Positions 12,212 through 26,756 of a stretch of 64,000 bases of DNA are shown one piece after another. Positions within the stretch are counted from its first letter, which is position 1. Every line of letters starts with the position of its first letter. This DNA is from Terracoccus luteus. GTDB lineage: Bacteria; Actinomycetota; Actinomycetes; Actinomycetales; Dermatophilaceae. A program made the position numbers and the translations under genes. The DNA is taken from positions 2,728,001-2,792,000 of the forward strand of contig NZ_RBXT01000001.1 in assembly GCF_003635045.1 (NCBI RefSeq), written 5' to 3'. Under the pieces are notes generated by a model that was given only the letters and a program-made list of their open reading frames with translations, was not told the origin of the DNA and did no database searches.

Positions 12212-13462
12212 ATGACCGATCAGCCCGCCACCGCTGCCGCGCAGCCGGCCCCCCTCGCGCCGCCCGCGGCCGACGCGTTCGCGCTGACGCCGCCCCCGGT
12301 GGCCGCGCCCGTCGCCGAGACCGCCGCGCCGAAGATGGCCCCCGCCGTGCCCGAGGCGGCGCTGCCCGGCCTCGACGCCAAGGTCGACACCTACCTCACC
12401 GACCTCATGAAGGCCGCGACGAAGTCGCCGGAGTGGGAGGCCAAGGCGGCCGACGTCCGCTCGATGGGCAACGACGAGGTGCGCTTCGCCGCCGAGAGCA
12501 GCAACCGCATGCTGCAGCTGCCGGTCAAGGCCCTCAACGACGGCAACCTCTCGGGCAGCTCGAAGGTCGGCAAGACCCTGCTCGACCTGCGCCGCACCGT
12601 CGAGGACCTCGACCCCGGGCAGGCGACGGGCGCGAAGAAGTTCCTCGGCATGATCCCGTTCGGCGACCGCGTCACCGACTACTTCCGCAAGTACCAGAGC
12701 AGCCAGAGCCACCTCAACGGCATCCTGCACTCGCTGCAGTCGGGGCAGGACGAGCTGACGAAGGACAACGTCGCCCTCAACCTCGAGAAGCGCTCGCTGT
12801 GGGACTCCATGGGTCGGCTCAACCAGTACGTCTACGTCGCCGAGCGGCTCGACGCCAAGCTCTCGGCCCAGGTCGCGACCCTCGACGCGACCGACCCCGA
12901 GAAGGCCAAGGCGATGCGCGAGGACGTCCTGTTCTACGTGCGCCAGAAGCACCAGGACCTGCTGACGCAGCTGGCCGTGTCGATCCAGAACTACCTCGCC
13001 ATCGACATCGTCATCAAGAACAACATCGAGCTCATCAAGGGCGTCGACCGGGCCACGACGACGACGGTGTCGGCGCTGCGTACGGCCGTCATCGTCGCGC
13101 AGGCCCTCAACAACCAGCAGCTCGTGCTCGACCAGATCACGGCGCTCAACACGACGACGTCGGGGCTCATCGAGCGCACGAGCGAGCTGCTCAAGACGAA
13201 CTCGGCGCGCATCCAGGAGCAGTCGGCCAGCTCCACCCTGTCGATCGAGTCGCTGCAGAAGGCGTTCGCCAACATCTACGAGACGATGGACGCCATCGAC
13301 CAGTTCAAGGTGCGCGCCCTCGACAACATGGCCGCCAGCATCGGCACCCTCGAGACCGAGGTGGCCAAGTCGCGCAGCTACCTCGACCGCGTCAAGGCGC
13401 ACGACGACCGCACGGCGAGCGGCACGGCATCCGGCGTGCTCGACCTCGGGGCGCCGCGCTGA
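12212..13462 (+). CDS. telA: TelA-family (toxic anion resistance) protein
   Basis: The 416-residue, mostly helical product matches the TelA family. After a Pro/Ala-rich head (residues 5-50) comes the characteristic SSNRMLQLPVKAL, then KKFLGMIPFGDRVTDYFRKY with spaced Gln-rich helices, DVLFYVRQKHQDLLTQLAVS, and ALRTAVIVAQALNNQQLVLDQI. The family is linked to tellurite and cell-envelope stress, but its biochemical role is not established. The ATG at 12212 follows AGGGGAAGG with a longish spacer. It heads a 13.5-kb plus-strand run ending with the FHA gene, so it probably works with the PknG signalling genes. Confidence 0.9.
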   Translation: MTDQPATAAAQPAPLAPPAADAFALTPPPVAAPVAETAAPKMAPAVPEAALPGLDAKVDTYLTDLMKAATKSPEWEAKAADVRSMGNDEVRFAAESSNRMLQLPVKALNDGNLSGSSKVGKTLLDLRRTVEDLDPGQATGAKKFLGMIPFGDRVTDYFRKYQSSQSHLNGILHSLQSGQDELTKDNVALNLEKRSLWDSMGRLNQYVYVAERLDAKLSAQVATLDATDPEKAKAMREDVLFYVRQKHQDLLTQLAVSIQNYLAIDIVIKNNIELIKGVDRATTTTVSALRTAVIVAQALNNQQLVLDQITALNTTTSGLIERTSELLKTNSARIQEQSASSTLSIESLQKAFANIYETMDAIDQFKVRALDNMAASIGTLETEVAKSRSYLDRVKAHDDRTASGTASGVLDLGAPR

Positions 13463-13558
13463 GGGCACCGACCGTGACGAGAGCACGGGTGGCACGAGCG
13501 GCAGGGTCGCCGGACGCGACGCGGCCGCGGCAGGCGCAGCGGTAGAGGACGGGACGCA

Positions 13559-14149
13559 GTGGGCATCAGGTCGTGGTTCGGGCTGGGCAGGCCCGAGGTG
13601 CCCGAGCCTGCCCCCACGCCCGGCCCGCCCACGACCGAGCAGCTGCTGACGGCGCTCGACGGCATCGAGCAGCTCGCCCGCGACGGCAAGGTGCCCGGCG
13701 TCGTGCTCTCGCGGCTGCTGCGCGTCACCCGGGTCGTGCGCCAGTGCCTGCCGCGGCTGTCGAACCTCGGCCTCGGCAGCGCCCAGGGTTTCAGCGTCAT
13801 GGCGACGGTGACCGACTACCTGCCCGTCGCCATCGGCAACTACCTGCGGCTGCCCCGCGACTGGGCCAACACGCGGCCGATCGCAGCCGGCAAGAGCTCG
13901 GTCATGCTGCTCGTCGACCAGCTCGACCTGCTCGGCTCGACGATGGACAAGGTCTACGACGCCGTCAACCGGGCCGACGCCGAGGCGATCATCGTGCACG
14001 GCGCCTTCCTCGAGCAGAAGTTCGGCCACCCGGCCTCCGGTGGCTCGCTCGGTCTCGACGCCCCCGACCCGACACCGCCGTCGCGGTCCGTGGATCCGGA
14101 CGGCGCCCCCGTGCGTCCGTCCGTCGACCCCCTCGCCCCGCCGACCTGA
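13559..14149 (+). CDS. Conserved-looking hypothetical protein between telA and the AAA+ gene
   Basis: A 196-residue product that I do not recognise. It has no signal peptide or clear transmembrane segment. A short Pro-rich stretch (residues 12-25) precedes a helical core (LLTALDGIEQLARDGKVP, then VLSRLLRVTRVVRQCLPRL and NYLRLPRDWANTRPIAAGK), and the last ~35 residues are Pro/Asp-rich and probably disordered. The start is GTG at 13559 with GGACG upstream. It lies 96 bases after telA and 59 before the next gene, consistent with one operon. The position beside telA and a helical core containing LPRDWANTRP suggest a TelA partner; this is inference only. Confidence 0.7.
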   Translation: MGIRSWFGLGRPEVPEPAPTPGPPTTEQLLTALDGIEQLARDGKVPGVVLSRLLRVTRVVRQCLPRLSNLGLGSAQGFSVMATVTDYLPVAIGNYLRLPRDWANTRPIAAGKSSVMLLVDQLDLLGSTMDKVYDAVNRADAEAIIVHGAFLEQKFGHPASGGSLGLDAPDPTPPSRSVDPDGAPVRPSVDPLAPPT

Positions 14150-14208
14150 GAGCACCCGCCACCGACATGAGCCGTGACGACCAGCCGGGAGAGCAGCTGT
14201 GAGCAGAC

Positions 14209-14817
14209 ATGAGCACTGACGCCGACACCCACCTCGACGAGGCGCTGGGCGGGCTGGCCGACGTCGCCGGCGAGGCCGGCCTCGACCCGGCCGTCGCCCG
14301 CGACGAGGGCCTGCGCGTCGCGGCCGCACTCGCCGAGTCGGTGCCCGGAGCCGCCGTGTCGTGGGCCGCCGTCGCGAGGCCGGGCACGACCGACCTCGGC
14401 GCCGCCAACGAGGCCTTCTTCGACGCGGCCTCCCGCGGCCGTCGCTGGCGCGCCGCCCCGACCGACCTGCTCGCCACGCTCGTGGAGTCGGGGAGCCCCC
14501 GCGCCGCCGACTACGCGCAGGCCCTCACCGAGGTCGCCTCCGCCGCCGTCATGCTCGGCACCGCACCCATCTGGGTCATCGCCAACGCCTCGGCCACCTC
14601 GGCCGCCTACCTCGCCGCCGCCCGCCCCGCGACCGCGCCGCCCGCCGTCCCCGCCCTGCCGCCCCACGCCTTCCCGACCCCCACGCTCACCGGGGGGATG
14701 CCGGGGAGCCCGCTCGGCGGCATCCGCGCGGGTGCTGACGGGGCCGGGTCACCGGCCACCGGTGCGGCGGGCGCTCCCGCGGCCACGCAGACGGCCGAGC
14801 CGGGCGCGACGGCCTAG
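14209..14817 (+). pseudogene. N-terminal part of an AAA+ protein gene, cut by an in-frame TAG
   Basis: The frame encodes 202 residues: a helical domain (about 1-145, with YAQALTEVASAAVMLGTAPIWVIA) and a Pro/Ala/Gly-rich linker, ending at TAG (14815-14817). The same frame then continues without another stop through 14818-14877 (PEAPAEPEKTVEELLAELDD) straight into the AAA+ domain. The linker composition is seamless on both sides of the stop, and TAG is one base away from GAG, giving ATAEPEAPAEPE. I therefore read 14209-15765 as one gene broken by a nonsense change or a sequencing error. A separate functional N-terminal protein cannot be excluded. Confidence 0.6.
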
Positions 14818-14877
14818 CCCGAGGCGCCGGCGGAGCCCGAGAAGACCGTCGAGGAGCTGCTGGCCGAGCTCGACGAC

Positions 14878-15765
14878 ATGATCGGTCTCGACGCCGTGAA
14901 GAAGGAGATCCACCGCCAGGTGGCCCTGCTCACGGTCGAGAAGCTGCGCACCGAGGCCGGCCTCAAGGCCCCGCGGATGAGCCGCCACCTCGTCTTCGTC
15001 GGCAACCCCGGCACCGGCAAGACGACCGTCGCCCGGCTCGTCGGCGGCATCTACAAGGCGCTCGGGCTGCTGCCGACCGGTCAGCTCGTCGAGGTCGACC
15101 GCAGCGAGCTCGTCGCCGGCTACGTCGGGCAGACCGCCATCAAGACGGCCGAGGTGTGCGCGAAGGCCGTCGGCGGGGTGCTCTTCATCGACGAGGCCTA
15201 CTCGCTGGCCGGCGACCAGTACGCCCAGGAGGCGGTCAACACCCTCGTCAAGGAGATGGAGGACCACCGGCACGACCTCGTCGTCATCGTGGCCGGCTAC
15301 CCCGACCCGATGGCGCGGTTCATCGCCCAGAACCCGGGGCTCGCGAGCCGCTTCACGACGACGATCGAGTTCGACGACTACGACGACGACGAGCTGATGG
15401 CCATCCTCACCTCGATCGCGTCGGGCTCCGACTACGAGCTGTCGGACGAGGCGGAGCAGCGCGTGCGGGCCATGCTGCAGGCGACCCCGCGCGGCCCCGC
15501 CTTCGGCAACGGCCGCTTCTCGCGCAACCTCTTCGAGGCGGCCGTCGGGCGCCACGCCTGGCGGCTGCGCGACGAGAAGGCGCCGACGGTCGAGCAGCTG
15601 CGTCGCCTCGAGGCCGGCGACCTCGTCGAGATCCCCGAGACCGAGCCGACGGCGCCCGTCCCGGGGTCGGCTCCGGACACGCTCAGGGACGACCCTGATG
15701 GGGTCGGCGCCGACGATGAGGCACGCTCGGACGAGCACCCCCACGACGACGAGGGCTCCGCATGA
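14878..15765 (+). CDS. CbxX/CfxQ-type AAA+ ATPase (C-terminal part of split gene)
   Basis: The 295-residue product has a complete AAA+ module: Walker A GNPGTGKTTVARLVG, the pore-loop-like VDRSELVAGYVGQTA, Walker B GGVLFIDEAYSLAG, sensor-1 VIVAGYPDPM and the arginine-finger region NPGLASRFTTTI. This is the CbxX/CfxQ (Rubisco-activase-like) family, whose non-photosynthetic members are general remodelling ATPases. The ATG at 14878 has no ribosome site and lies mid-way through the usual TVEELLAELDDMIGLDAVK entry into the domain, so independent initiation is doubtful; see the preceding fragment. Its stop overlaps the glnX start (ATGA). The acidic tail (DDEARSDEHPHDDEG) is probably disordered. Confidence 0.8.
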   Translation: MIGLDAVKKEIHRQVALLTVEKLRTEAGLKAPRMSRHLVFVGNPGTGKTTVARLVGGIYKALGLLPTGQLVEVDRSELVAGYVGQTAIKTAEVCAKAVGGVLFIDEAYSLAGDQYAQEAVNTLVKEMEDHRHDLVVIVAGYPDPMARFIAQNPGLASRFTTTIEFDDYDDDELMAILTSIASGSDYELSDEAEQRVRAMLQATPRGPAFGNGRFSRNLFEAAVGRHAWRLRDEKAPTVEQLRRLEAGDLVEIPETEPTAPVPGSAPDTLRDDPDGVGADDEARSDEHPHDDEGSA

Positions 15766-17123
15766 GTGCACCGACGACCAACATCCCCGTGTCCGTCCCG
15801 GCCGGACAGCGTTCCCCCGCGCCCTCCGGAGGGCGTGGGGGGCCCGGCACCGGCCCGGCCACCATCGCGGGCAGCCTGTCCGGCATCCCCGACGCCCGGT
15901 CGGTCGTGACGCGCCTGCTGCACGGCACCCCGGGGCGCATGCGGGTGCTCGGCCTCGTCGCCGTCGTCGCGGCCCTCGTCGTCGGCGCGGTCAGCGTCAG
16001 CGCGCTGCTCGGCGCCCAGGCGGCCGTCGACCGGGCCGCCACGAACACCGCCCAGGTGGTGCGGGCGCAGACGATGCACGTCGAGCTGCTGCGCGCCGAC
16101 GCCCTCGCGACCAACGCCTTCCTCGTCGGCGGCCTCGAGTCGCCGCAGTCGAGGGCCCAGTACGAGGCGGCCATGAGCGCCGTCGCCCGAGGGATCAGCG
16201 AGGCCGCCGCGGCCCAGCCCGCCGACGCCGAGGCCCTCGGCGCACTGTCGGCGCAGGTGCAGCAGTACGCGGCCCTCGTCGAGCAGGCCCGCACGAACAA
16301 CCGCCAGCTGCTGCCCGTCGGGGCGCAGTACCTCAGGCAGGCGAGCGCCGGCCTGCGCGCCGAGGCGATCCCCACCGTCGAGGCGGTCGTCACGGCCAAC
16401 GAGAAGCGGTCGCGCGACGAGTTCTCGCACTCGTCCTCGGTCGTGCTCCTCGTGCTGGGCGCCCTCGCGCTCGCCGTGCTCGTCTACGTGGCGGTCTGGC
16501 TGGCCCGCCGCACCCACCGCTACCTCAACCGCTCGCTCACCGGGGCGGTGGCGCTGCTGCTCGTCGGCCTCGTCGCCGCCGCGGTCACGGTCGGCAACAT
16601 CAGCCGCGACGCCCAGGCGGTCGACCGGGGCAGCTACACCCAGGTCAAGGCCCTCGCCGACGTGCGCACCGCCGCCTACGACGCCCGGGCCCAGGAGGGC
16701 CTCGGCCTCGTCGCCCGCGGGCAGAGCGGTGACAGCGAGAAGGCGTTCACGGCCGACGTGCGGGAGGTCAGCGACGCCATCAACGACGTGACGCCCAGGC
16801 AGACGCGTCAGTCCCTGGGTGAGCAGTGGTCGGCGTACACGACCAAGCACGGTGAGATCCGCGCGGCCGACGACTCCGGCGACTGGGAGCAGGCCGTCGG
16901 GCTCGCCACGTCGACGGGCTCGGGCTCCGCGACGGCCACCTTCACCACTTTCGACACGACGGCCAGCAACCTGCGTGAGGACGCCTCCCGCGAGGTGGCC
17001 GCCTCGCTCGACGGCATCGGTGGGAGGGCGCCGTGGATCGCCCTCGCCCTCGGTGCCGCCGCCCTCGCGGCCGCCTGGCTCGTGCTTCGAGGGTTCGCCC
17101 AGCGACTGCAGGAGTACCGATGA
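15762..17123 (+). CDS. glnX: GlnX-like transmembrane sensor
   Basis: The 453-residue membrane protein has four predicted transmembrane helices (about 62-84, 227-248, 260-279, 424-444). They enclose two Ala/Gln-rich helical extracytoplasmic domains (about 85-226 and 280-423), each resembling a four-helix-bundle sensor. Gene order glnX-glnH-pknG matches mycobacteria, where GlnX relays the state of the amino-acid-binding lipoprotein GlnH to the kinase PknG. I base the name on that order and the topology, since the sequence itself is poorly conserved. It overlaps the AAA+ gene upstream and glnH downstream by four bases each, so translation is coupled. Confidence 0.8.
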   Translation: MSAPTTNIPVSVPAGQRSPAPSGGRGGPGTGPATIAGSLSGIPDARSVVTRLLHGTPGRMRVLGLVAVVAALVVGAVSVSALLGAQAAVDRAATNTAQVVRAQTMHVELLRADALATNAFLVGGLESPQSRAQYEAAMSAVARGISEAAAAQPADAEALGALSAQVQQYAALVEQARTNNRQLLPVGAQYLRQASAGLRAEAIPTVEAVVTANEKRSRDEFSHSSSVVLLVLGALALAVLVYVAVWLARRTHRYLNRSLTGAVALLLVGLVAAAVTVGNISRDAQAVDRGSYTQVKALADVRTAAYDARAQEGLGLVARGQSGDSEKAFTADVREVSDAINDVTPRQTRQSLGEQWSAYTTKHGEIRAADDSGDWEQAVGLATSTGSGSATATFTTFDTTASNLREDASREVAASLDGIGGRAPWIALALGAAALAAAWLVLRGFAQRLQEYR

Positions 17124-18124
17124 CACGACGACCGCGCGCCGTCCGCCGGGCCCGGGCCGGCCTCGTCACCGCCGGGGCGGCCCTGACCACCGCCGCCCTC
17201 GCCGCCTGCTCGTCAGGGGGCTACACCCCCACCGCGGTGCCGACCCCGCGGCCCACGGCGACCCAGGCGCAGGGCAACAGCCCGGCCGCGAGCTGCAGCA
17301 CCGCCACCCAGTCGTACGACCCGCTGCCGAGCCTCCCCGCCGCCGACTCGATCCGCGACGCCGGCCTGCGCAAGATCCTCGACGCCGGACGCATCCGGGT
17401 CGGGGTCTCGGCCGACACCTACCTTTTCGGGTCCACCAACCCGAAGACCGGCGCCATCGAGGGGTTCGACATCGACCTCGCGCGCTACGTCGCGGAGCGC
17501 CTCTTCGGTGACCCCGGCAAGGTGCAGCTCGTCGTCATCTCCGCGGCCGATCGGCTGCCGCTGCTGCAGTCCGGCCGCATCGACATGGTGGCCCGCAACT
17601 TCTCGATGACGTGCGACCGGTGGGACGACATCGCCTTCTCGGCGGAGTACTACCGCTCGGGTCAGACCCTGCTCGTCTCGAGCGACCTCAAGGACGCCGA
17701 GAACGCCACCTTCGCGACGGTGAAGGGGCTGCGGGTCTGCGCCCCGACGGGCACCTCGTCGCTCGCGCTGCTGCGCCAGCAGGCCGAGCGGTACGACCTC
17801 AAGCCGGTCGACGCCCCCAACCACACCGGCTGCCTCGTGCGCTTCCAGCAGGGCGAGGCCGACGCGATCACCGGCGACGACACCGTGCTGGCCGGGCTCG
17901 CGGCCCAGGACCCGTACACCGTCGTGAGCAAGGCCAAGCTGGTGACGACCGAGCCGTACGGCCTGGGCGTCAACAAGGACGACGTCTATCTCGCCCGCTA
18001 CCTCAACCGCGCCATCGCGGAGTACGAGTCGAGCGGGCGGTGGAAGAAGAGCTACGACACGTGGCTGGCCGACACGCTCGGCCAGGCCCCGGCTCCGCCC
18101 ACCCCCCGGTACGGGCGCTCATGA
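17120..18124 (+). CDS. glnH: GlnH-like amino-acid-binding lipoprotein
   Basis: The 334-residue product is a periplasmic-binding-protein type lipoprotein: a basic head, a hydrophobic stretch, and a lipobox TTAALAAC with the lipidated Cys near residue 28. A Thr/Pro/Gln-rich spacer precedes the SBP_bac_3 domain (about 75-310; RIRVGVSADTYLFG, IEGFDIDLARYVAERLFG, GRIDMVARNFSMT, ADAITGDDTVLAGL). In mycobacteria GlnH binds aspartate/glutamate/asparagine-type ligands and signals through GlnX to PknG rather than serving an importer. No permease genes are nearby, which fits a sensing role. ATGA overlaps link it to glnX and to the next gene. Confidence 0.88.
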   Translation: MTRRPRAVRRARAGLVTAGAALTTAALAACSSGGYTPTAVPTPRPTATQAQGNSPAASCSTATQSYDPLPSLPAADSIRDAGLRKILDAGRIRVGVSADTYLFGSTNPKTGAIEGFDIDLARYVAERLFGDPGKVQLVVISAADRLPLLQSGRIDMVARNFSMTCDRWDDIAFSAEYYRSGQTLLVSSDLKDAENATFATVKGLRVCAPTGTSSLALLRQQAERYDLKPVDAPNHTGCLVRFQQGEADAITGDDTVLAGLAAQDPYTVVSKAKLVTTEPYGLGVNKDDVYLARYLNRAIAEYESSGRWKKSYDTWLADTLGQAPAPPTPRYGRS

Positions 18125-19347
18125 CGCCGTTCCCGCAGACCTCCGACGGCGCCGGTCCGGGCGCGACGAGTGGCGCCGCCGGACTCACGGCCCCCGCGGC
18201 GCCCGGCTCACTCGGCGTCCCGGTGCAGGCCGGTGCCGCGCAGACCTACCTCAACGCCCTGCGTCAGTGGGTGACCCAGCGACGGGCCGACCTCGCCGAG
18301 GTGGATGCCGTCGTGCTGACCCTCCCGCCGGCCGACCAGGCGGCGATCACGACCGACCTCACCGTGGCCCTGTCGTTCTGGAAGGCGGTCGACGACCGGC
18401 TCGTGCTGCTCGAGACCACCTTCGACGGAGGGCGGGTCGGGCCGAAAGAGGCGGAGCGCCTGTCGACGCTCATCCACGGCCGCCTCGACTCGAACAGCTC
18501 GGGCAACCTGTCCCTGCCCTCGAGCGGGTCTCTGGCCGTCAGCCTGCCCGAGGCCTGCCGCCTGCTCGACTCGCTCACCCGCACCCTGCAGGCACGGGCG
18601 TCACTCGCCCCGGGGGCAGCCGAGTCGTCGCAGCGGATCACACTGACCCGCAACGGGATCGAGCGGGTGCGCGACCAGCTTCCCCTCGTGCCAGCAGGAT
18701 CGGAGCGCGACGCGGCCGCCCAGCAGCTCGCGCGGCTCGACCGCCGGCTCACGGACCTCGTCGACCGGGCCCGCCGCGGCGCCGAGGTCGGCGGCATCAT
18801 CGCCCCGCTCGAGATCGAGGTGGCGACCCTCGAGCGCGACCTCATCGTCGCCTCGGCCGAGCGCGCCAACGCCGCCCGCGACCGCACCCAGACGCTGCGA
18901 CGCGTCGACGAGCTCGACGCCCGGGCGGCCGCCATCCGCGCCCTCGAGAAGGCGTGCCTCGACGCCGTGACCCCGGCGCCGCACCTCGCCGTGCCCAACG
19001 TGCACGCCCTCGGACCGGTCCCCCGGGGCCGGGCCGACCTCGACGCCTTCCGCACCCGTCTCGACCGGGTGTCACGGGCGCTCGACCTCGCCCACGAGAC
19101 GTACGCCGCCGCCCTCGCCGAGCGCGACGAGGTGGCCGGCCTCGCCGGCGCCCTCACCGCCATGGCCGGCGCGACGTCGGTGCCCGAGGAGGGCCGCGAC
19201 GACCTCACCGAGCTGCGCGCGCGCATCAGCGCCGCGACGTCCGAGCGACCGCTGCCCGTGCACCGCACCCGGGCCCTGCTCGCCGCCCACCAGACGTACG
19301 TCGACGCCATCACCCGAGGCGCGAGCACCTCACGAGGGGGCCGCTGA
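18121..19347 (+). CDS. Coiled-coil hypothetical protein between glnH and pknG
   Basis: The 408-residue product is unrecognised. It has no signal peptide or membrane span. After a Gly/Ala/Pro-rich head (1-40) it is almost wholly helical, with long charged heptad-like stretches (for example RNGIERVRDQLPLVP, then AAQQLARLDRRLTDLVDRARRG and IEVATLERDLIVASAERANA). This suggests a rod-like cytoplasmic scaffold. It overlaps glnH and pknG by four and one bases, so it is translated with the kinase and is a strong candidate partner or substrate of it. Mycobacteria lack a gene in this position between glnH and pknG. Confidence 0.75.
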   Translation: MTPFPQTSDGAGPGATSGAAGLTAPAAPGSLGVPVQAGAAQTYLNALRQWVTQRRADLAEVDAVVLTLPPADQAAITTDLTVALSFWKAVDDRLVLLETTFDGGRVGPKEAERLSTLIHGRLDSNSSGNLSLPSSGSLAVSLPEACRLLDSLTRTLQARASLAPGAAESSQRITLTRNGIERVRDQLPLVPAGSERDAAAQQLARLDRRLTDLVDRARRGAEVGGIIAPLEIEVATLERDLIVASAERANAARDRTQTLRRVDELDARAAAIRALEKACLDAVTPAPHLAVPNVHALGPVPRGRADLDAFRTRLDRVSRALDLAHETYAAALAERDEVAGLAGALTAMAGATSVPEEGRDDLTELRARISAATSERPLPVHRTRALLAAHQTYVDAITRGASTSRGGR

Positions 19348-21911
19348 TGACCAGCCCGACCAGCACCACGACCGGCACCGGGGCCCGGTGCACCCAGCCC
19401 GGCTGCACCGGCACCATCAGCGACGGCTACTGCGACGTCTGCGGCATGGCCGCCGGCTCGGCGCCCGCCCCTACCGCTTCCCCCGCCGCTGCGAGCGCGG
19501 GCACGCAGGCCGGCCCACCGGCATCCGGCACCACCGGCTCGTCGGCCGCGTCCCTGCCGACCGTGCCCCCTGTCGGACCCCCTGTCGGTCCACCTGTCAC
19601 ACCCCCGCCCGGGGTCCCGGCGCCCGTCGTCTTCGACCCCAACGCGATCCCCGAGGGCGGACGCTGCCGTCAGCCCGGCTGCACGGGCACCATCGAGGCG
19701 GGCTACTGCAACGTCTGCGGCACCCCGGCCGACCAGCGGGCGGGCGTCCCCGTCACCGCGGGGTCGGGCGACGGCCCCGACAGCACCGCGACGGCCGCGG
19801 TGGCCGGCGTGGCGGGGGTCGGCCCCGAGCTGTCGACCCGGTCGGCCGCGTCGAGCAACCTCGCCTCGGCTGCCCTCGGGTCCAAGCGCGCCCGCGAGTC
19901 GGGCAGCATCGCCACCCGGCGAACCGGCGGGTCGCAGCGGCTGCGCTCGGCGCGCCTCGGCGGCGGCATCACGACCGTGCGGCCGGCCCCCCAGATCGAC
20001 GCCGAGCGGGCCCTGCTCACCAACCCCTCGGTGCCCGAGGGCAAGCGGTTCTGCCCCAAGTGCGGCGAGCCCGTGGGTCGTGGCCGCGACGGCAAGCCGG
20101 GGCGCACGAGCGGCTTCTGCGCCAACTGCCGCCAGCCGTTCTCGTTCGAGCCCAAGCTCAGGCAGGGTGACCTCGTCGCCGGGCAGTACGAGGTGGCCGG
20201 CTGTCTCGCCCACGGCGGTCTGGGCTGGATCTACCTCGCCCGCGACAAGAACGTGTCCGACCGCTGGGTGGTGCTCAAGGGCCTGCTCAACTCGGCCGAC
20301 CCCGACGCCCTCGCCGCGGCCATCGCCGAGCAGCGCTTCCTCGCCCAGGTCAGCCACCCGAGCATCGTCGAGATCTACAACTTCGTCACCCACGACGACG
20401 CCGGCTACATCGTCATGGAGTACGTCGGCGGCACGTCGCTCAAGTCGATCCTCAAGCAGCGCATGCAGACGACAGGCCGCTACGACCCGCTGCCCGTCGA
20501 CCAGGCGCTCGCCTACCTGCTCGAGATCCTGCCGTCGTTCCAGTACCTGCACGACCTCGGGCTCGTCTACTGCGACTTCAAGCCCGACAACATCATCCAG
20601 GTCGGTGACGAGGTCAAGCTCATCGACCTCGGCGGCGTGCGGCGGGCCGACGACGACGACTCCGCCATCTTCGGCACGGTCGGCTACCAGGCGCCCGAGG
20701 TGGCCGAGCTGGGCGTCTCGGTCGCCTCCGACATCTACACGATCGGGCGCACGCTCGTCGTGCTGACGATGGAGTTCCGCGGCTACCAGTCGACGTACCT
20801 GAACACGATCCCGGCGCAGGACTCCAGCCCGGTGTTCCAGCGCTACGACTCCTTCTACCGGCTCGTGGCCAAGGCCTGCGCCCCCAACCGCGACGACCGC
20901 TTCGTCTCCGCCGACGAGCTGCGGTCGCAGATGGTCGGCGTGCTGCGCGAGGTCGTCGCCATCGACCGCGGCTCGGGCGCAGCCACCTCGACGGTGAGCT
21001 CGCTGCTCTTCGAGTCACCGACGACCGGCACCGAGCCCGACGACTGGCGCACCCTGCCCAACCTGCGCCGCGACCCGCACGACCCGCAGACCGGCTGGCT
21101 CCAGACCGTCGCCGGCACCCCCGGCGAGCGCCTCGCCACCCTCGACCGGGCCCCGGCCAAGTCGACCGAGGTGCTGCTCGAGATGGCCCGCACCGCCCTC
21201 GAGGCGGGCAAGCGCGACGTCACCGACAAGACGACGACGGCCCTGCTCGCCGCCGACCCGTGGGAGTGGCGGGCGGTCTGGATCCAGGGCCTCGCGGCCC
21301 TCGAGCGTGGTGACGCCCGTGGCGCGCAGGCGGCCTTCAACGCCGTCTACGGCCAGGTGCCGGGCGAGCTGGCCCCCAAGCTCGCCCTCGCCCACTCGTG
21401 CGAGAAGGCCGGCGACGACACCGTCGCCGAGAACCTCTACACCGCCTGCGCCCGCACCGACGCGACGTACGTGCCGATGGCGGCCTTCGGCCTCGCCCGG
21501 GTCAGGGGCACGCGCGGCGACATCGACGGCGCCGTCTCGGCCTACCGCCTCGTGCCGCCGCAGTCGAGCGCGTACCGCACCGCCCGGGCCGGGCTCGCCG
21601 AGCTGCTGACGACCGCCAACCGCGGCCTGCCCGACCTCGCCGAGGCGCTGCGCACCCTCGACGACACCTCGCTCACCGCCCGCCGCAAGGCCGAGCTGAC
21701 GGCGCAGATCTACCGCGAGGCGCTCGCGGGCGTCGAGACGAGCGGCAACAAGGCCGACGTCCGCATCGGCGAGCACGCGGGCACCCCGACCAACCTGCGC
21801 CTCGGGCTCGAGTCGGCCCTGCGCGAGCTGGCCCGGCGCACCCCCGACCTCGGCGAGCGCGTCGCCCTCGTCGACGAGGCCAACACCGTCCGACCCTGGA
21901 GCATCTGGTGA
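19347..21911 (+). CDS. pknG: Serine/threonine protein kinase PknG with two extra zinc ribbons
   Basis: The 854-residue product matches PknG throughout. A rubredoxin-like domain (about 232-262, FCPKCGEPVGR then FCANC) precedes the kinase (about 275-530: VAGCLAHGGLGWIYLARDKN, catalytic YCDFKPDNII, LIDLGGVRR in place of DFG). TPR-like helices follow, ending DEANTVRPWSIW. PknG controls 2-oxoglutarate/glutamate metabolism by phosphorylating FHA proteins (GarA/OdhI). Two extra Cys4 ribbons at the N-terminus (RCTQPGCTGTISDGYCDVCG and RCRQPGCTGTIEAGYCNVCG) flank a long disordered segment and are not in mycobacterial PknG. The start overlaps the previous stop (TGATG). Confidence 0.96.
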   Translation: MTSPTSTTTGTGARCTQPGCTGTISDGYCDVCGMAAGSAPAPTASPAAASAGTQAGPPASGTTGSSAASLPTVPPVGPPVGPPVTPPPGVPAPVVFDPNAIPEGGRCRQPGCTGTIEAGYCNVCGTPADQRAGVPVTAGSGDGPDSTATAAVAGVAGVGPELSTRSAASSNLASAALGSKRARESGSIATRRTGGSQRLRSARLGGGITTVRPAPQIDAERALLTNPSVPEGKRFCPKCGEPVGRGRDGKPGRTSGFCANCRQPFSFEPKLRQGDLVAGQYEVAGCLAHGGLGWIYLARDKNVSDRWVVLKGLLNSADPDALAAAIAEQRFLAQVSHPSIVEIYNFVTHDDAGYIVMEYVGGTSLKSILKQRMQTTGRYDPLPVDQALAYLLEILPSFQYLHDLGLVYCDFKPDNIIQVGDEVKLIDLGGVRRADDDDSAIFGTVGYQAPEVAELGVSVASDIYTIGRTLVVLTMEFRGYQSTYLNTIPAQDSSPVFQRYDSFYRLVAKACAPNRDDRFVSADELRSQMVGVLREVVAIDRGSGAATSTVSSLLFESPTTGTEPDDWRTLPNLRRDPHDPQTGWLQTVAGTPGERLATLDRAPAKSTEVLLEMARTALEAGKRDVTDKTTTALLAADPWEWRAVWIQGLAALERGDARGAQAAFNAVYGQVPGELAPKLALAHSCEKAGDDTVAENLYTACARTDATYVPMAAFGLARVRGTRGDIDGAVSAYRLVPPQSSAYRTARAGLAELLTTANRGLPDLAEALRTLDDTSLTARRKAELTAQIYREALAGVETSGNKADVRIGEHAGTPTNLRLGLESALRELARRTPDLGERVALVDEANTVRPWSIW

Positions 21912-23341
21912 CCGAGACCCCCACCCAGCCCGGCGAGCCCGTGAGCGTGGCGCCAGTCGCCGCGCCCGCCGAGGGGGAGGCCTGCGCCGTCTGCGGCGCC
22001 GTCAACGACCCCGGCGCCAGCTTCTGCGAGGAGTGCGGGGCCGACATCTCCGCGGGGGCCGGCCACCCGGCATCCGCCCCGGCGCAGACCGCCCCGGCCG
22101 GTGAGGAGTCGCCGCTCGACGTCGGGTGGACCGGCCCCGTCGTCCCGCAGTCCGGGCCCGCGCCGGCCGACGCCCTGTGCACCGCGTGCGGCATCGGGCA
22201 CATCGTCGACGGCTACTGCGACCACTGCGGCACCCCGCCGCCCGACCCGCGCAACCACGTCGTCGTGCCCGCGGCCACGTGGGTGGGCGGTGTGAGCGAC
22301 ATCGGCCGTCGCCACAGCCGCAACGAGGACGCCATCGCCGTCGGCGCCGGCGAGGCCCCCGGGTCGCGTGCCGTGCTCGTCGTCTGCGACGGCGTCTCGA
22401 TGGCCACCGACTCGCACCTCGCCTCGCTCGCCGCGGCCCAGGCGGCCAAGGCCGTGCTCGACCGCCCCTTCCCGCAGGGGGTGGGCACCCCCGACGCGTG
22501 GGCGGCCGGCGCCGCCCGGGCGTTCACCGAGGCGGTCGAGCGTGCCAACGAGGCCGTGGCCGCCACCGTCGACGACGACGTGCCCAACCCGCCGTCGTGC
22601 ACCTTCGCCGCCGCCGTGGTCGAGAACGGCGCGGTCGTCTCGGGCACGCTCGGCGACAGCCGCGTCTACTGGCTGCCCGACCGCGACGAGGAGCCCGCCC
22701 GCCAGCTCGGCACCGACGACTCCTTCGCGCAGGAGCAGATGGCCGCCGGGGTCCCCCGCGAGGAGGCCGAGAACGGCCCGCAGGCGCACTCGATCACGCG
22801 ATGGCTCGGCCGTGACTCGCCCGACGACCTCACGCCGCACCTGACCACCCTGCCCGGGGGCGAGGGCTGGCTCATGGTCTGCAGCGACGGCCTGTGGAAC
22901 TACTGCTCGGATGCCGGTGAGCTGAGAGAGCTGGTCCGCGCGCGGGCCCGCGCCGGGGCGACGACCGACCCCACCGAGCTGGCCGGCGCCCTCGTCGACT
23001 TCGCCAACGAGCAGGGCGGGCGCGACAACATCACGGTTGCCCTCGCCCGGCTGGCCGGGCGAGGATCGGCACCGGCGCTCCCGACCGCGGGGGCGACCGA
23101 CGTGACGACCGAGAGCGCGCCCGGGCTGGACGGCGGGAGCGACTCCACCGCCCCGACCACCCCGGTCGCCCGCACCGTGACGGGCACGACCGACCCGGCG
23201 GGCGCGGGTACGAGGGACGCACCCGGCCCGGGGGTCGCGACCGACGCGAGCGCAGGACCGCAGAGCACGGCCGCCACCACGGCGGCGACGAGTGGGGCGG
23301 CCGCGACGGCCGCCCGGGAAGAGGACCCGACCCATGGCTGA
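21908..23341 (+). CDS. PP2C-family protein phosphatase with two zinc ribbons
   Basis: The 477-residue product is a metal-dependent Ser/Thr phosphatase (PPM/PP2C). Motifs include IGRRHSRNEDA, VVCDGVSMATDS, GTLGDSRVYWL, MVCSDGLWNYCSD and GGRDNITVALARL, spanning about residues 125-380. Before the catalytic domain are two Cys4 ribbons (CAVCGAVNDPGASFCEECG and CTACGIGHIVDGYCDHCG). After it lies a ~90-residue Thr/Ala/Pro-rich tail, probably disordered. GTGA overlap with pknG makes it the natural antagonist of that kinase. The start is GTG at 21908. Confidence 0.93.
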   Translation: MTETPTQPGEPVSVAPVAAPAEGEACAVCGAVNDPGASFCEECGADISAGAGHPASAPAQTAPAGEESPLDVGWTGPVVPQSGPAPADALCTACGIGHIVDGYCDHCGTPPPDPRNHVVVPAATWVGGVSDIGRRHSRNEDAIAVGAGEAPGSRAVLVVCDGVSMATDSHLASLAAAQAAKAVLDRPFPQGVGTPDAWAAGAARAFTEAVERANEAVAATVDDDVPNPPSCTFAAAVVENGAVVSGTLGDSRVYWLPDRDEEPARQLGTDDSFAQEQMAAGVPREEAENGPQAHSITRWLGRDSPDDLTPHLTTLPGGEGWLMVCSDGLWNYCSDAGELRELVRARARAGATTDPTELAGALVDFANEQGGRDNITVALARLAGRGSAPALPTAGATDVTTESAPGLDGGSDSTAPTTPVARTVTGTTDPAGAGTRDAPGPGVATDASAGPQSTAATTAATSGAAATAAREEDPTHG

Positions 23342-24662
23342 CTTCACCGCTGAGGTGTTCCAGAACGAGTTCCTGCCCGACGGCGGCACCGACCTGCACG
23401 CCATCGTGCGCATCACCTCGAGCGGCGCCTCGGGGGCCGCGGCCGGCGCTGCCGGCCCGGCCGGCGCGGGTGGCTACGGCACGTCACCGTCCGCCGCCGC
23501 GCCCGGGTCGTCGGCCGAGGTCATCCTCATCGACACCTCCGGGTCGATGGGTCGTCGCGGGGTCGCCGCCGCCGGCGAGGCAGCCAAGGCCGCGCTGCAC
23601 GAGATCGTCGACGGCACGCTGTTCGCCGTGGTCTCGGGCAATGGCACGGCGCAGATCGTCTACCCCTACAGCCACCAGGGCGCCCTCGTCGCCATGTCGT
23701 CGCAGACGCGCGCGGAGGCGGTGCGCGCCGTCGAGGGATTGCGCGCCAACGGCGGCACGGCGATGGGAACGTGGCTCTCGCTCGCCCGCCAGATCTTCGA
23801 GACGGTGCCGCACGTGACGAAGCGGCACGCGATCCTGCTCACCGACGGCGTCAACGAGGGCGAGACGCCCGCGTCGCTGCAGGCCGCCGTGCAGTCGTGC
23901 GTCGGCGTCTTCCAGTGCGACTGCCGTGGCGTCGGCGACCAGTGGCGGGTCGAGGAGGTCCGCGGCATCGCCTCGGCGCTGCTCGGCAGCGTCGACCTCA
24001 TCCCCGCGCCGGAGGAGATGGCGGCCGAGTTCCAGGCCATGATGCGCGCCTCGATGGCCCGCGGCGTGGCCAACGCCGAGCTGCGCGTGTGGACCCCGCA
24101 GGGCGCCGAGCTGCTCTTCGTGCGCCAGGTCTCCCCGACCCTCGAGGACCTCACCTCCCGCGGCACGCAGTTCAACCCGCTGACGCGCTCCTTCCCGACC
24201 GGGGCGTGGTCGGACGAGAGCCGCGACTACCACGTCGCCGTACGACTCCCCGCCCGCACGCTGGGCCAGGAGCAGCTGGCGGCCCGCGTGCAGATGGCGC
24301 TCGGGCCTGACGCGGTCGCCCAGGCGCTCGTCAAGGCGAAGTGGAGCAACGACGACGCGCTCACCACGCGCATCGACCCGGCCGTCGCGGCCTACACGGG
24401 CCAGACCGAGCTGGCCAAGACCATCCAGGAGGGCCTCGCCGCCAAGTCGGCCGGGCAGGACGACATCGCCACGTCGAAGCTCGGCCGCGCCGTGCAGCTG
24501 GCCGCGCAGACCGGCAACGCGGAGATGACGACGCGGCTGCGCAAGGTCGTCGAGATCGACGACGAGGACACCGGCACCGTGCGCCTGAAGAAGGGGGCCT
24601 CGAAGATGGACGAGATGTCGCTCGACACGGCCTCGACGAAGACGAGCCGGGTGCGCCGGTGA
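23334..24662 (+). CDS. VWA-domain protein
   Basis: The 442-residue cytoplasmic protein has a von Willebrand A domain (about 58-250) with an intact MIDAS: IDTSGSMGRRG, a Thr in NGGTAMGTWLSLA, and ILLTDGVNEGE. A C-terminal helical region (about 330-420) follows. In bacteria such proteins often serve as metal-dependent adaptors in ATPase or phosphosignalling complexes. The gene overlaps the PP2C gene by eight bases and the FHA gene by four. An extra Gly/Ala-rich insert (about residues 28-55) precedes the VWA core. The specific partner is unknown; the AAA+ protein or the FHA protein of the same operon are candidates. Confidence 0.9.
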   Translation: MADFTAEVFQNEFLPDGGTDLHAIVRITSSGASGAAAGAAGPAGAGGYGTSPSAAAPGSSAEVILIDTSGSMGRRGVAAAGEAAKAALHEIVDGTLFAVVSGNGTAQIVYPYSHQGALVAMSSQTRAEAVRAVEGLRANGGTAMGTWLSLARQIFETVPHVTKRHAILLTDGVNEGETPASLQAAVQSCVGVFQCDCRGVGDQWRVEEVRGIASALLGSVDLIPAPEEMAAEFQAMMRASMARGVANAELRVWTPQGAELLFVRQVSPTLEDLTSRGTQFNPLTRSFPTGAWSDESRDYHVAVRLPARTLGQEQLAARVQMALGPDAVAQALVKAKWSNDDALTTRIDPAVAAYTGQTELAKTIQEGLAAKSAGQDDIATSKLGRAVQLAAQTGNAEMTTRLRKVVEIDDEDTGTVRLKKGASKMDEMSLDTASTKTSRVRR

Positions 24663-25711
24663 GCGCGGTCTGCCCCAACGGGCACACGTCCGACGCCGAG
24701 GACTACTGCGACACGTGCGGCTCGCCGATCGACGCCGCCGCCCAGCCGGCCGCCGGTGGTGGCGTCGGGGGCGGCCGGTCCTCGCTCGACCTCGACCCGC
24801 CCCCGTCCGCGCCGTCCGCCGGCGGAGGGGGCCAGGCGGCGCCGGCGAGCGCCCCCGAGACGCTCGCCTGCCCCAACTGCCACACCGAGAACTCCCCGGG
24901 CGCCCTGTTCTGCGAGGCGTGCGGCTACGACTTCACCACCGGGGCCATGCCGCGCGGCTCCGAGCCCACCGGTGGTGACCCCGCCGTGGCGGGGGCCTCC
25001 GACGGTGGTGACGGTGGTGACGGTGTCGTGTCCCCCACTGACGGCACCGACGGCACGGATGCCGGGTCGCCGGCCGCCGTCACCGACGACCCGTCCGGCG
25101 CCGCCGGGGTCCCTGGTCCGGCCTCTCCCGCCGACCCGGCGGACCCGGCCGACACCACCGACCCGACTGACACCACCGACCCGTCCGACGCCCCTGGTCC
25201 TCGCGGCCCCGGCGACGGCGGCACCGCGGCGACCGCGGGGGCCGGCTCACCGGCATCCGCCCCGACCGGCACGGGCACGACCACGGGCACGACGGGCTTC
25301 GAGTGGCTGGCGGAGGTGTGGGTCGACCCCGACTGGTACCAGACGCAGGAGGCCGACGACCCGTGCCCGTCGCCCGGGCTGCCGACGATCATGCCGCTGC
25401 GCCACCGCAGCGTGCTGCTCGGGCGGATGTCGACGAGCCGCAACACACGGCCCGAGATCGACCTGTCGTCCGACCCGGGCGTCAGCCGCCGTCACGCGCA
25501 GCTGACGACCGACGGCAGCCGCTGGTTCGTCGAGGACCTCGGCAGCTCGAACGGCACGTTCGTCGGCCCGGCGTCGGGCCCGCTGCCCGCGGCGCCGGTC
25601 GCCGTCGGCCCCCGCACCGAGCTCGACGACGACGACCGCCTCTACGTCGGTGCGTGGACCCGGGTCGTCGTGCGGCGCGCGACCCCCGACGAGGTCGAGG
25701 CCTACGGCTGA
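24659..25711 (+). CDS. Zinc-ribbon/FHA-domain protein
   Basis: The 350-residue product has two Cys4/His-type ribbons (CPNGHTSDAEDYCDTCG near residue 5 and CPNCHTENSPGALFCEACG near 71). A long Asp/Thr/Pro/Gly linker (about 95-215, with DTTDPTDTTDPSD) follows, then a C-terminal FHA domain (about 250-345; LLGRMSTSRNTRPEIDL, GVSRRHAQL, VEDLGSSNGTFVG). FHA domains bind phosphothreonine. PknG's known substrates are FHA proteins phosphorylated N-terminally of the FHA domain, so this Thr-rich linker is an attractive phosphorylation site, by inference. It is not a plain GarA/OdhI, which are about 150 residues. It ends the operon. Confidence 0.92.
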   Translation: MSAVCPNGHTSDAEDYCDTCGSPIDAAAQPAAGGGVGGGRSSLDLDPPPSAPSAGGGGQAAPASAPETLACPNCHTENSPGALFCEACGYDFTTGAMPRGSEPTGGDPAVAGASDGGDGGDGVVSPTDGTDGTDAGSPAAVTDDPSGAAGVPGPASPADPADPADTTDPTDTTDPSDAPGPRGPGDGGTAATAGAGSPASAPTGTGTTTGTTGFEWLAEVWVDPDWYQTQEADDPCPSPGLPTIMPLRHRSVLLGRMSTSRNTRPEIDLSSDPGVSRRHAQLTTDGSRWFVEDLGSSNGTFVGPASGPLPAAPVAVGPRTELDDDDRLYVGAWTRVVVRRATPDEVEAYG

Positions 25712-25753: not shown

Positions 25754-26320
25754 GTGACCGCGCCCTCGCCGCTGCCGCCCGAGGTCGACGTGCCGCAGGT
25801 GGTCGTCGTCACCGGCGTCATGGCGGCCGGCAAGTCGACGGTGTCGCAGCTGCTCGCCGAGCGGTTCTCGCGCGCCGTGCACCTGCGCGGAGACGTCTTC
25901 CGGCGGTTCGTCGTGAGCGGGCGGGTCGAGATGTCGCCGCAGGGTGACGACGAGGCCGAGCGCCAGCTGGCCCTGCGCCACACCATCGCGGCGCGCACCG
26001 CCGACAGCTATGTCGAGGCCGGCTTCACCGTGGTCGTGCAGGACCTCTTCGTCGGCGAGACGCTCGCCCCGTTCCTCGACCAGGTGCGGTCGCGCCCGGT
26101 CAGCCTCGTCATGCTGGCGCCCGACGTCGCCGTCGTCATGCAGCGCGAGTCGGAGCGCACGAAGGTCGGCTACGGCGACCTGTGGTCGGTGCGCGACTTC
26201 GACCACATGGTGCGCACGAAGACGCCGCGCATCGGGCTGTGGCTCGACAGCTCGCAGCAGACTCCGGACGAGACGGTCGACGAGGTGGTGCGGCGTCTCG
26301 CCGAGGCGAGGGTGGCCTGA
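25754..26320 (+). CDS. P-loop small-molecule kinase/phosphotransferase-like protein
   Basis: The 188-residue product is a P-loop NTPase of the adenylate-kinase/chloramphenicol-phosphotransferase-like group. Walker A is VVTGVMAAGKSTVSQLLAERF, and LRGDVFRRFVVSG follows where nucleoside or antibiotic kinases bind substrate. A lid-like RESERTKVGYGDLW occurs near residue 135. The substrate is unknown. The start is GTG at 25754, probably on a leaderless mRNA (TAGGGT six bases upstream). One base separates its stop from the soxR start, so the two are likely co-transcribed. Confidence 0.82.
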   Translation: MTAPSPLPPEVDVPQVVVVTGVMAAGKSTVSQLLAERFSRAVHLRGDVFRRFVVSGRVEMSPQGDDEAERQLALRHTIAARTADSYVEAGFTVVVQDLFVGETLAPFLDQVRSRPVSLVMLAPDVAVVMQRESERTKVGYGDLWSVRDFDHMVRTKTPRIGLWLDSSQQTPDETVDEVVRRLAEARVA

Positions 26321-26321
26321 C

Positions 26322-26756
26322 GTGCCGCCCACGCTGACGATCGGTGAGGTCGCCCACCGCACCGGCGTCGCCGCCTCGGCGCTGCGCTACTGGGAGCAGC
26401 TCGGCCTCATCCACAGCGAGCGTACCGGCGGCAACCAGCGCCGGTACGACCGCGCCACGATCCGACGGGTCTCGTTCGTGCGCGCCGCCCAGCGGGTCGG
26501 GCTCTCGCTCGACGAGGTCGCCGCCGCCCTCGACACGCTGCCCGCGGGGCGCACGCCTACTGCCCGCGACTGGGCCCGGCTGTCGCGGTCGTGGCGAGGG
26601 CGGCTCGACGACCAGATCGTGCGGCTCGAGCGGCTGCGCGACCAGCTCGACTCGTGCATCGGCTGCGGCTGTCTCAGCTTGGCGAGGTGCGTGCTGCACA
26701 ACCCTGACGACGTCCTCGCCGAAAAGGGCCGGGGCGCAGTGCTGCTCGACCCGTGA
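26322..26756 (+). CDS. soxR: SoxR-like MerR-family redox sensor
   Basis: The 144-residue product has an N-terminal MerR helix-turn-helix (LTIGEVAHRTGVAASALRYWEQLGLI then RRYDRATIRRVSFV). Its C-terminal CIGCGCLSLARC fits the SoxR [2Fe-2S] motif CX2CXCX5C exactly. SoxR proteins sense redox-cycling compounds and activate target promoters with long spacers; in actinobacteria they control efflux pumps and oxidoreductases. The GTG at 26322 follows the upstream stop by one base. No SoxR-type target promoter was noticed in the window. Confidence 0.93.
   Translation: MPPTLTIGEVAHRTGVAASALRYWEQLGLIHSERTGGNQRRYDRATIRRVSFVRAAQRVGLSLDEVAAALDTLPAGRTPTARDWARLSRSWRGRLDDQIVRLERLRDQLDSCIGCGCLSLARCVLHNPDDVLAEKGRGAVLLDP

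Follow-up and report, generated by a model that had tools for sequence, protein, structure and literature searches.

A conserved gene row joins the GlnH-GlnX-PknG sensor and kinase to a phosphatase, a VWA protein and an FHA protein in Terracoccus luteus and other actinobacteria

Signalling through GlnH, GlnX and the kinase PknG has been studied in mycobacteria and in Corynebacterium glutamicum, as described in excerpts of three papers in PubMed Central (PMC) (PMC6069109, PMC9769921, PMC8546545), and an excerpt of one of these calls the operon arrangement widely conserved on the basis of STRING (PMC6069109). The locus considered here belongs to Terracoccus luteus and lies in a stretch of 64,000 nucleotides that we call the window (contig NZ_RBXT01000001.1, positions 2,728,001 to 2,792,000). 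Eleven coding stretches, all on the + strand, occupy window positions 12212-25711 (13.5 kb) in the order telA-H1-AAA-glnX-glnH-CC-pknG-PP2C-VWA-FHA, the AAA+ gene being in two pieces. As in the GlnH-GlnX-PknG system, the same three proteins are encoded in the same order and a GarA/OdhI homologue is found elsewhere in the genome. Unlike that system, the locus has a gene for an all-helical protein (CC) between glnH and pknG, genes for a PP2C phosphatase, a VWA protein and an FHA protein after pknG, zinc ribbons ahead of the PknG rubredoxin, and telA-H1-AAA in front.

Two further systems are close to this one. In the PpkA-PppA-Fha threonine phosphorylation pathway of type VI secretion, known to us from an excerpt (PMC5995506), a kinase, a PP2C phosphatase, an FHA protein and a VWA domain are encoded together as they are here, PpkA itself bearing the VWA domain according to an excerpt of another paper (PMC1262709). 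In the window, however, the VWA domain forms a protein of its own and has no match in PknG, the kinase is of the PknG type with rubredoxin and TPR, the sensor is GlnH/GlnX, and no type VI family was found among the ten operon proteins scanned, the rest of the genome not being searched. The TelA/Ter stress systems reportedly include vWA-phosphatase-kinase sets (Anantharaman, Iyer and Aravind, in 2012), so that TelA, VWA, PP2C and a kinase share one neighbourhood there as here; the kinase here is PknG, however, and no TerD family member was found among the same ten proteins, the genome not being searched for TerD. We conclude that the row of genes is genuine, conserved and coherent in function, and that it should be counted as a variant of the PknG system already known, not as a new kind of system. 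We also think it fairly probable that the long form of the GlnH-GlnX-PknG operon specifies a writer-eraser-reader complex tied to GlnH/GlnX, in which zinc ribbons serve as assembly tags.

Conservation of the row was assessed by scanning GTDB contigs with a PknG alignment and keeping the best 80 of at least 593 relatives, ranked by likeness to the window protein; these 80 named loci, one record from a plasmid collection and the window made up 82 loci, onto which profiles of all eleven proteins were mapped. This sample is uneven, and a draw of 148 genomes from the class provided the even one. PknG matched in all 82 loci, GlnX in 75, GlnH in 74, FHA in 73, CC and PP2C in 72 each, VWA in 70, AAA in 42, and TelA and H1 in 41 each, some of the FHA and PP2C matches being due to cross-matching between shared ribbons and several of the missing ones to contig ends. 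Gene order is kept in most of the best 80 loci and two arrangements dominate: the long form, with the whole row, in Terrabacter, Nocardioides, Kribbella, Kineosporia, Cellulomonas, Oerskovia, Promicromonospora and others, and the core form, which lacks telA-H1-AAA and was seen in Streptomyces, Kitasatospora, Actinoplanes and one Nocardia. The pair glnX-glnH is found no earlier than FHA in Actinomadura, Nonomuraea and one metagenome-assembled genome (MAG) of Dormibacteraeota, and the examined stretch of an Acidimicrobiales MAG shows CC-pknG-PP2C-VWA-FHA but no glnX-glnH. Kibdelosporangium, Amycolatopsis, Prauserella, Herbihabitans and Actinophytocola have a three-gene form consisting only of glnX-glnH-pknG. 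Poor conservation of gene order in relatives, which a first-pass annotation of the window had named as grounds for doubt, was looked for and not found: the row is conserved and, as that annotation proposed, joins an amino-acid sensor to a kinase, a phosphatase and an FHA protein.

In the even draw PknG_rubred matched in 41 of the 148 genomes. Forty of these regions were read, the window among them and one weak match (G110) left out; VWA stands beside pknG in 25, six of them with telA, nine regions have the three genes only, and six are cut, partial, divergent or, in G028, without any operon match. All nine three-gene regions are from family f6, which from its GarA sequences we infer to be Mycobacteriaceae. 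An alignment search for the VWA family (E up to 1e-40) matched 26 genomes, one of them (G088) with a fragment containing stops; all 26 are among the 41 with PknG_rubred, and none of the 107 genomes without it has a match. With a loose criterion for a tight junction (an in-frame start lying between 25 bases ahead of the preceding stop and 12 bases past it), AAA and glnX are tightly joined in 45/45 cases, glnX and glnH in 99/108, CC and pknG in 85/91, and pknG and PP2C in 88/97, and the first three of these junctions are dominated by overlaps of four bases.

Zinc ribbons are borne by PknG (before its rubredoxin), the PP2C phosphatase and the FHA protein, and one ribbon type, ending in [GD]YC[DN]xCG, is found in all three. 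As a DNA pattern this ending has four matches in the genome of 4.02 Mb, all within the operon (two in pknG, one each in the PP2C and FHA genes), and the reversed control has none. A wider ribbon pattern was scanned in the genomes with a VWA match other than G056 and G088 (24 of 26) and gave 42 matches, 41 of them within 8 kb of a VWA gene; three of the 41 adjoin second VWA copies, and G122 has no match. Nine f6 genomes with three-gene operons gave two ribbon matches, neither at pknG. It is the near-absence of the pattern from other proteins that is informative. Among long operons a ribbon-type motif is present in all three proteins at 28/45 loci and in at least two at 43/45. Extra CxxC knuckles precede the PknG rubredoxin in 44/44 long, 41/47 core and 1/15 intact three-gene operons, and the YC-type ribbon is present in PknG in 41/44, 23/47 and 0/15, respectively; nine further rows fit no class (five have knuckles), and L105 and L082 were dropped for want of an anchor. 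The ribbons of PknG therefore accompany the partner genes, and the exact YC-type that is shared chiefly marks the long operon.

The direction of change was examined in trees of PknG. A tree of 42 rows, hand-picked from 117, was built with a mixture model and rooted on the Dormibacteraeota row; it includes 14 of the 15 intact three-gene rows (15 of 17 being left once L055 and L096, at contig ends, had been removed). In this tree the operon forms need two changes, the minimum. The telA-H1-AAA set arises once, with support of 100 for the long clade, and the 14 three-gene rows form one clade (support 82) within core operons, under branches of 96 and 100. A larger and simpler tree of 114 rows (L075, L092 and L060 dropped) also nests the three-gene rows inside the core, and VWA presence needs three changes in it. 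Because three-gene operons branch from within the core operons, CC, PP2C, VWA and FHA appear to have been lost in the three-gene lineage, and the textbook three-gene operon is best read as a reduced form of the core operon. The first-pass annotation had called the Terracoccus operon expanded; the core being widespread, with the three-gene rows inside it, that description is mostly unsupported, and only telA-H1-AAA looks added. Two genomes with Nocardia-like GarA or PknG (G107, G031) have three-gene operons and a second rubredoxin match, and Nocardia colli (L104) has a core-type operon on a long branch, which may be an extra or transferred copy. As far as our searches reach, the direction of change and an operon-restricted ribbon common to writer, eraser and reader in long operons are new. 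No description of the long operon was found among the open-licence PMC titles and abstract beginnings listed, those on PknG together with TelA, PP2C, von Willebrand or FHA included, although one may exist in subscription papers, and no paper on Streptomyces PknG with a zinc ribbon was found there.

Coding stretches of the Terracoccus luteus operon, in window positions
Feature	Positions	Strand	Support or remark
telA, TelA family (PF05816), 416 aa	12212..13462	+	PF05816 310 bits
H1, helical protein, putative TelA-partner type, 196 aa	13559..14149	+	without Pfam family
H2, predicted N-terminal part of AAA+ protein	14209..14817	+	ends at in-frame TAG
AAA+ ATPase domain with AAA_lid_6	14818..15765	+	frame shared with H2; first ATG 14878
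glnX, GlnX-family signal transduction membrane protein, 453 aa	15762..17123	+	NF058618 297 bits
glnH, SBP_bac_3, lipoprotein-like signal (LAAC), 334 aa	17120..18124	+	SBP_bac_3 87 bits
CC, all-helical protein in glnH/pknG interval, 408 aa	18121..19347	+	predicted structure
pknG, two N-terminal YC-type zinc-ribbon-like segments, rubredoxin, kinase, TPR, 854 aa	19347..21911	+	
PP2C phosphatase, two N-terminal zinc ribbons, 477 aa	21908..23341	+	PP2C_2 48 bits
VWA protein, complete MIDAS residues, 442 aa	23334..24662	+	VWA_2 38 bits, VWA_3_C 62 bits
FHA protein, two N-terminal zinc ribbons, C-terminal FHA domain, 350 aa	24659..25711	+	FHA 46 bits

All the genes named by the first-pass annotation are borne out, each in frame, on the + strand and, H1 and CC excepted, with its family match. 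The short overlaps that it had described along the row are present from AAA through FHA, where seven junctions overlap by 1-8 bases (AAA/glnX, glnX/glnH and glnH/CC by 4, CC/pknG by 1, pknG/PP2C by 4, PP2C/VWA by 8 and VWA/FHA by 4); they do not extend to the front, where telA and H1 are 96 bases apart and H1 is 59 bases from the next open reading frame. GlnX exceeds the NF058618 cut-off of 250, and TelA (309.9 bits, cut-off 30) is the sole PF05816 match in the genome. The PknG domains score 86 bits for PknG_rubred (PF16919), 103 for Pkinase (PF00069) and 172 for PknG_TPR (PF16918), and the nearest relatives of this PknG, among the matches listed, are from three Terrabacter and one Intrasporangiaceae isolate (86-88% identity). 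We take LAAC in GlnH to be a lipoprotein-like signal motif. A promoter and terminator scan of the operon found no match, where 0.1 and 1.8 were expected and the scan fits high-GC actinobacteria poorly. Interpretation as a defence system was rejected, as the PADLOC matches are to generic kinase or AAA models only. On the 3' side of the operon (window 25754-26756), after a gap of 42 bases, is a small gene for a P-loop kinase-like protein, followed by a MerR-type regulator with a cysteine cluster, presumably SoxR-like.

The AAA+ gene deserves separate comment. A TAG at 14815-14817 splits it in frame, within a variable proline- and alanine-rich linker. H2 and AAA form one open reading frame in 38 of the 39 loci with both parts, the window being the sole exception, and in all of five additional loci (43 intact loci in all). 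Because of this single reading frame in the other loci, we regard H2 as the N-terminal portion of the AAA+ protein, severed by the stop, and not as a gene of its own. The TAG may be a mutation, a split gene or a sequencing error. The AAA+ ATPase of the first-pass annotation thus stands as to family (AAA 64 bits, AAA_lid_6 63 bits) and falls as to an intact gene. Against the NCBIfam equivalogs the domain scores below cut-off for EccA (230.5 against 466.65), SpoVK (270.1 against 422.95) and CbbX (218 against 459.25), and it appears to be a relative only of these proteins.

Most of the catalytic and binding residues expected of the core proteins are in place. The PP2C of the window has the NED, GDSR, SDGL and DN motifs, and NED, SDGL and DN are present in 95/95 homologues; its FHA domain has GR, SRRH and SNGT, and the phosphopeptide-binding residues are found in 77/94 FHA proteins, five of the remainder being truncated or unaligned (this count was made again by alignment, since the FHA profile drifted into other frames). 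In the VWA protein the residues of the metal ion-dependent adhesion site (MIDAS), D67/S69/S71, T142 and D171, are invariant in 18 aligned proteins. Second copies of the VWA gene were seen at G018:C1:537232, G057:C1:3599742, G112:C1:2495856, G038:C1:7093681, G072:C119:22909 and G142:C239:21883; several are near weak PknG_rubred matches, which suggests paralogous clusters. The CC protein is all-helical in its AlphaFold2 model (mean pLDDT, the predicted local distance difference test, 90.0), and no Pfam or PDB relative was found for it, the best PDB E-value of the fold search being 0.71 with low TM-scores. The CC proteins encoded in core operons are weakly related to it, at a profile comparison probability of 98%, a score that helical proteins can inflate; codon bias was as expected in 27/27 of the core-operon CC reading frames examined.

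H1 is likewise modelled with an all-helical core (mean pLDDT 84.7). It has no Pfam family and the fold search reached a best PDB E-value of 0.16 with low TM-scores, so that for H1, as for CC, no function follows from structure. In the 148-genome draw the six genomes with an operon telA are exactly those in which H1 exceeds 200 bits, and 16 others give weak scores. Among the weaker relatives in other actinobacteria TelA lies within about 2 kb in 6 of 10 regions read, and on a Sphaerotilus plasmid an H1-type protein (72 bits) follows TelA and a vWA protein. H1 may thus best be seen as a TelA partner, and the helical gene that the first-pass annotation considered undescribed has indeed no Pfam family and does have relatives beside TelA elsewhere. 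Gene sets of TelA, a vWA protein and H1 apart from PknG were seen at L219 (the Sphaerotilus plasmid), L247, L251, L252 and L253. They resemble the operon in that TelA adjoins an H1-type helical protein and a VWA domain; they differ in that, judged by eye, the vWA protein of L219 and L247 seems to carry a fused substrate-binding-like domain with a signal sequence, and their searched stretches gave no match to an operon-type PP2C or GlnX. XpaC (PF10112, Halogen_Hydrol) was rejected as the identity of H1, matching none of the 29 members and nothing in the Terracoccus genome (E 0.001). An excerpt of a Listeria study places XpaC and TelA as neighbours and describes a telA-type mutant with higher sensitivity to nisin and tellurite (PMC12791056). 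XpaC might therefore be compared with H1 by analogy only; an envelope-stress role for TelA is a guess, for which that excerpted mutant is the sole support here, and any roles of TelA and the AAA+ protein in PknG signalling are guesses too.

On the target side, the genome encodes a GarA/OdhI homologue of 178 aa (L113, C1:1515969-1516316) that scores 171 bits against a curated cut-off of 200. Matches to this family occur in all 60 genomes tried, whatever their operon form, 16 of them over the cut-off. As N-terminal motif the Terracoccus protein has PRTLRF in place of the ETTSVF of mycobacterial-type GarA, the first threonine being an arginine as in Terrabacter. The proposal that GarA had lost the PknG motif in long-operon genomes was withdrawn after fuller extraction, a looser [TRS]T-x-x-[FLIV] being present in 55/61. 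TSVF itself is found in 12/61, namely f6 and Pseudonocardiaceae rows and Nocardia colli. An N-terminal four-cysteine ribbon of the FCxxCG kind is present in 26/61 GarA sequences, including those of Streptomyces, Actinomadura, Nocardioides, Kribbella and Granulicoccus, and absent from those of Terrabacter, Cellulomonas, Promicromonospora, Actinoplanes, Amycolatopsis, f6 and Terracoccus itself. The metabolic GarA branch is probably kept. With GarA/OdhI, which PknG is known to phosphorylate, encoded outside the operon, there may be more FHA targets or readers than the operon FHA protein; the reader predicted by the first-pass annotation is present, as an additional candidate.

Building on the observed gene content, order, spacing and motifs, the co-occurrence of VWA and PknG, the operon-restricted ribbon and the nesting in the trees, we propose a model in which we infer every interaction, substrate and output. 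GlnH would bind an extracellular amino acid and GlnX, by homology, would pass the signal across the membrane to the TPR domain of PknG. PknG would then phosphorylate its targets, probably including GarA/OdhI, the operon PP2C would strip the phosphates, and the operon FHA protein would bind phosphothreonine. The VWA protein may bridge partners via its metal site with CC as a structural partner, and the zinc ribbons may hold kinase, phosphatase and FHA protein together or bring them to one place. In one clade TelA-H1-AAA+ could add an envelope-stress or remodelling output. A bolder version, which we think less likely than not, is that in the ancestral PknG pathway kinase, dedicated phosphatase and FHA reader docked by a private ribbon onto a common hub (VWA or CC), that GarA, where it has an FCxxCG ribbon, may dock as well, and that the mycobacterial and corynebacterial paradigm is a stripped core.

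Several observations weigh against the complex and its history as proposed. The ribbon pattern was derived from this operon, and its presence in homologues follows from homology; the reversed control of the wider pattern gave 17 matches against 42 in the same 24 genomes, and each of ten genomes of genus g25 has one wider-pattern match. In core operons the ribbon is present in all three proteins at 9/49 loci, in two or more at 19/49 and in none at 7/49. Our confidence in a docked complex is reduced because of this lesser regularity and the 17 control matches. A linked-loss test of VWA and ribbon had three independent pairs and cannot reach significance (L055, L096, L103, L043, L126, L218, L127, L098, L085, L106 and L122 were dropped). 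Three genomes of the window's own family (G048, G081, G128) have neither a PknG_rubred nor a VWA match, and the operon is therefore patchy even within that family. Some junctions are weaker (PP2C to VWA 46/91, VWA to FHA 67/91, glnH to CC 57/78, telA to H1 17/46), and the AAA+ gene is broken in the window. Motifs were also missed by regular expression: Walker B matched in 38/46 loci, a tight VWA DxSxS in 52/93, PP2C GDSR in 90/95 and CDG in 81/95, and PknG D-K-N in 96/118 and DxG in 87/118. As to the trees, the support of 82 for the three-gene clade is not decisive, the outgroup is one Dormibacteraeota MAG, Nocardia colli with its core operon was left out of the 42-row tree as a long branch, and in the 114-row tree the three-gene rows split into two groups and all labels need 14 changes, partly through contig ends.

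Other explanations must be set beside a writer-eraser-reader complex. The genes could be co-located with separate functions, glnX-glnH-pknG acting on GarA/OdhI as in mycobacteria and PP2C-VWA-FHA with telA-H1-AAA forming an independent pathway that shares the transcript alone. This would agree with the persistence of the three-gene form without the other genes, with GarA/OdhI in every genome tried under any operon form, with H1 and TelA relatives outside PknG operons and with a core-operon ribbon that is often in one protein only; we nevertheless find it unlikely, given that the VWA family gave no match in the 107 genomes of the draw without PknG_rubred and that kinase, phosphatase and FHA protein of long operons have a common ribbon restricted to the operon. 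The history could also be the reverse, PP2C-VWA-FHA having been added to a three-gene ancestor and spread by transfer. A single weak outgroup, the odd placement in the 114-row tree of Nocardia colli and of Streptomyces sp. SID13031 (which groups with Kribbella), and the greater regularity of ribbons in long operons than in core ones are all compatible with this, but pknG-PP2C-VWA-FHA is already present in the Acidimicrobiales and Dormibacteraeota MAGs at the base of the trees and the 14 three-gene rows make up one nested clade, so we judge such a history improbable. Least probable, and in our opinion quite remote, is the idea that threonine phosphorylation switches on a machine for remodelling or secretion made up of the AAA+, VWA and TelA proteins, comparable to PpkA-PppA-Fha. 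The parts list of kinase, PP2C, FHA and VWA is the same and the AAA+ domain has sub-threshold scores of 231 bits for EccA and 270 for SpoVK; yet no secretion component was found among the ten operon proteins scanned, core operons do without AAA+ and TelA, and the AAA+ gene is broken in the window.

PknG has been studied for its part in glutamate metabolism and in mycobacterial infection, and that work, in the excerpts available to us, rests on the three-gene operon. If the three-gene operon arose by reduction, PknG would once have had a phosphatase, a reader and a scaffold of its own. Should this be true, the switching off of PknG signalling and its spatial organisation would become directly testable in those laboratory streptomycetes that have kept the core set.

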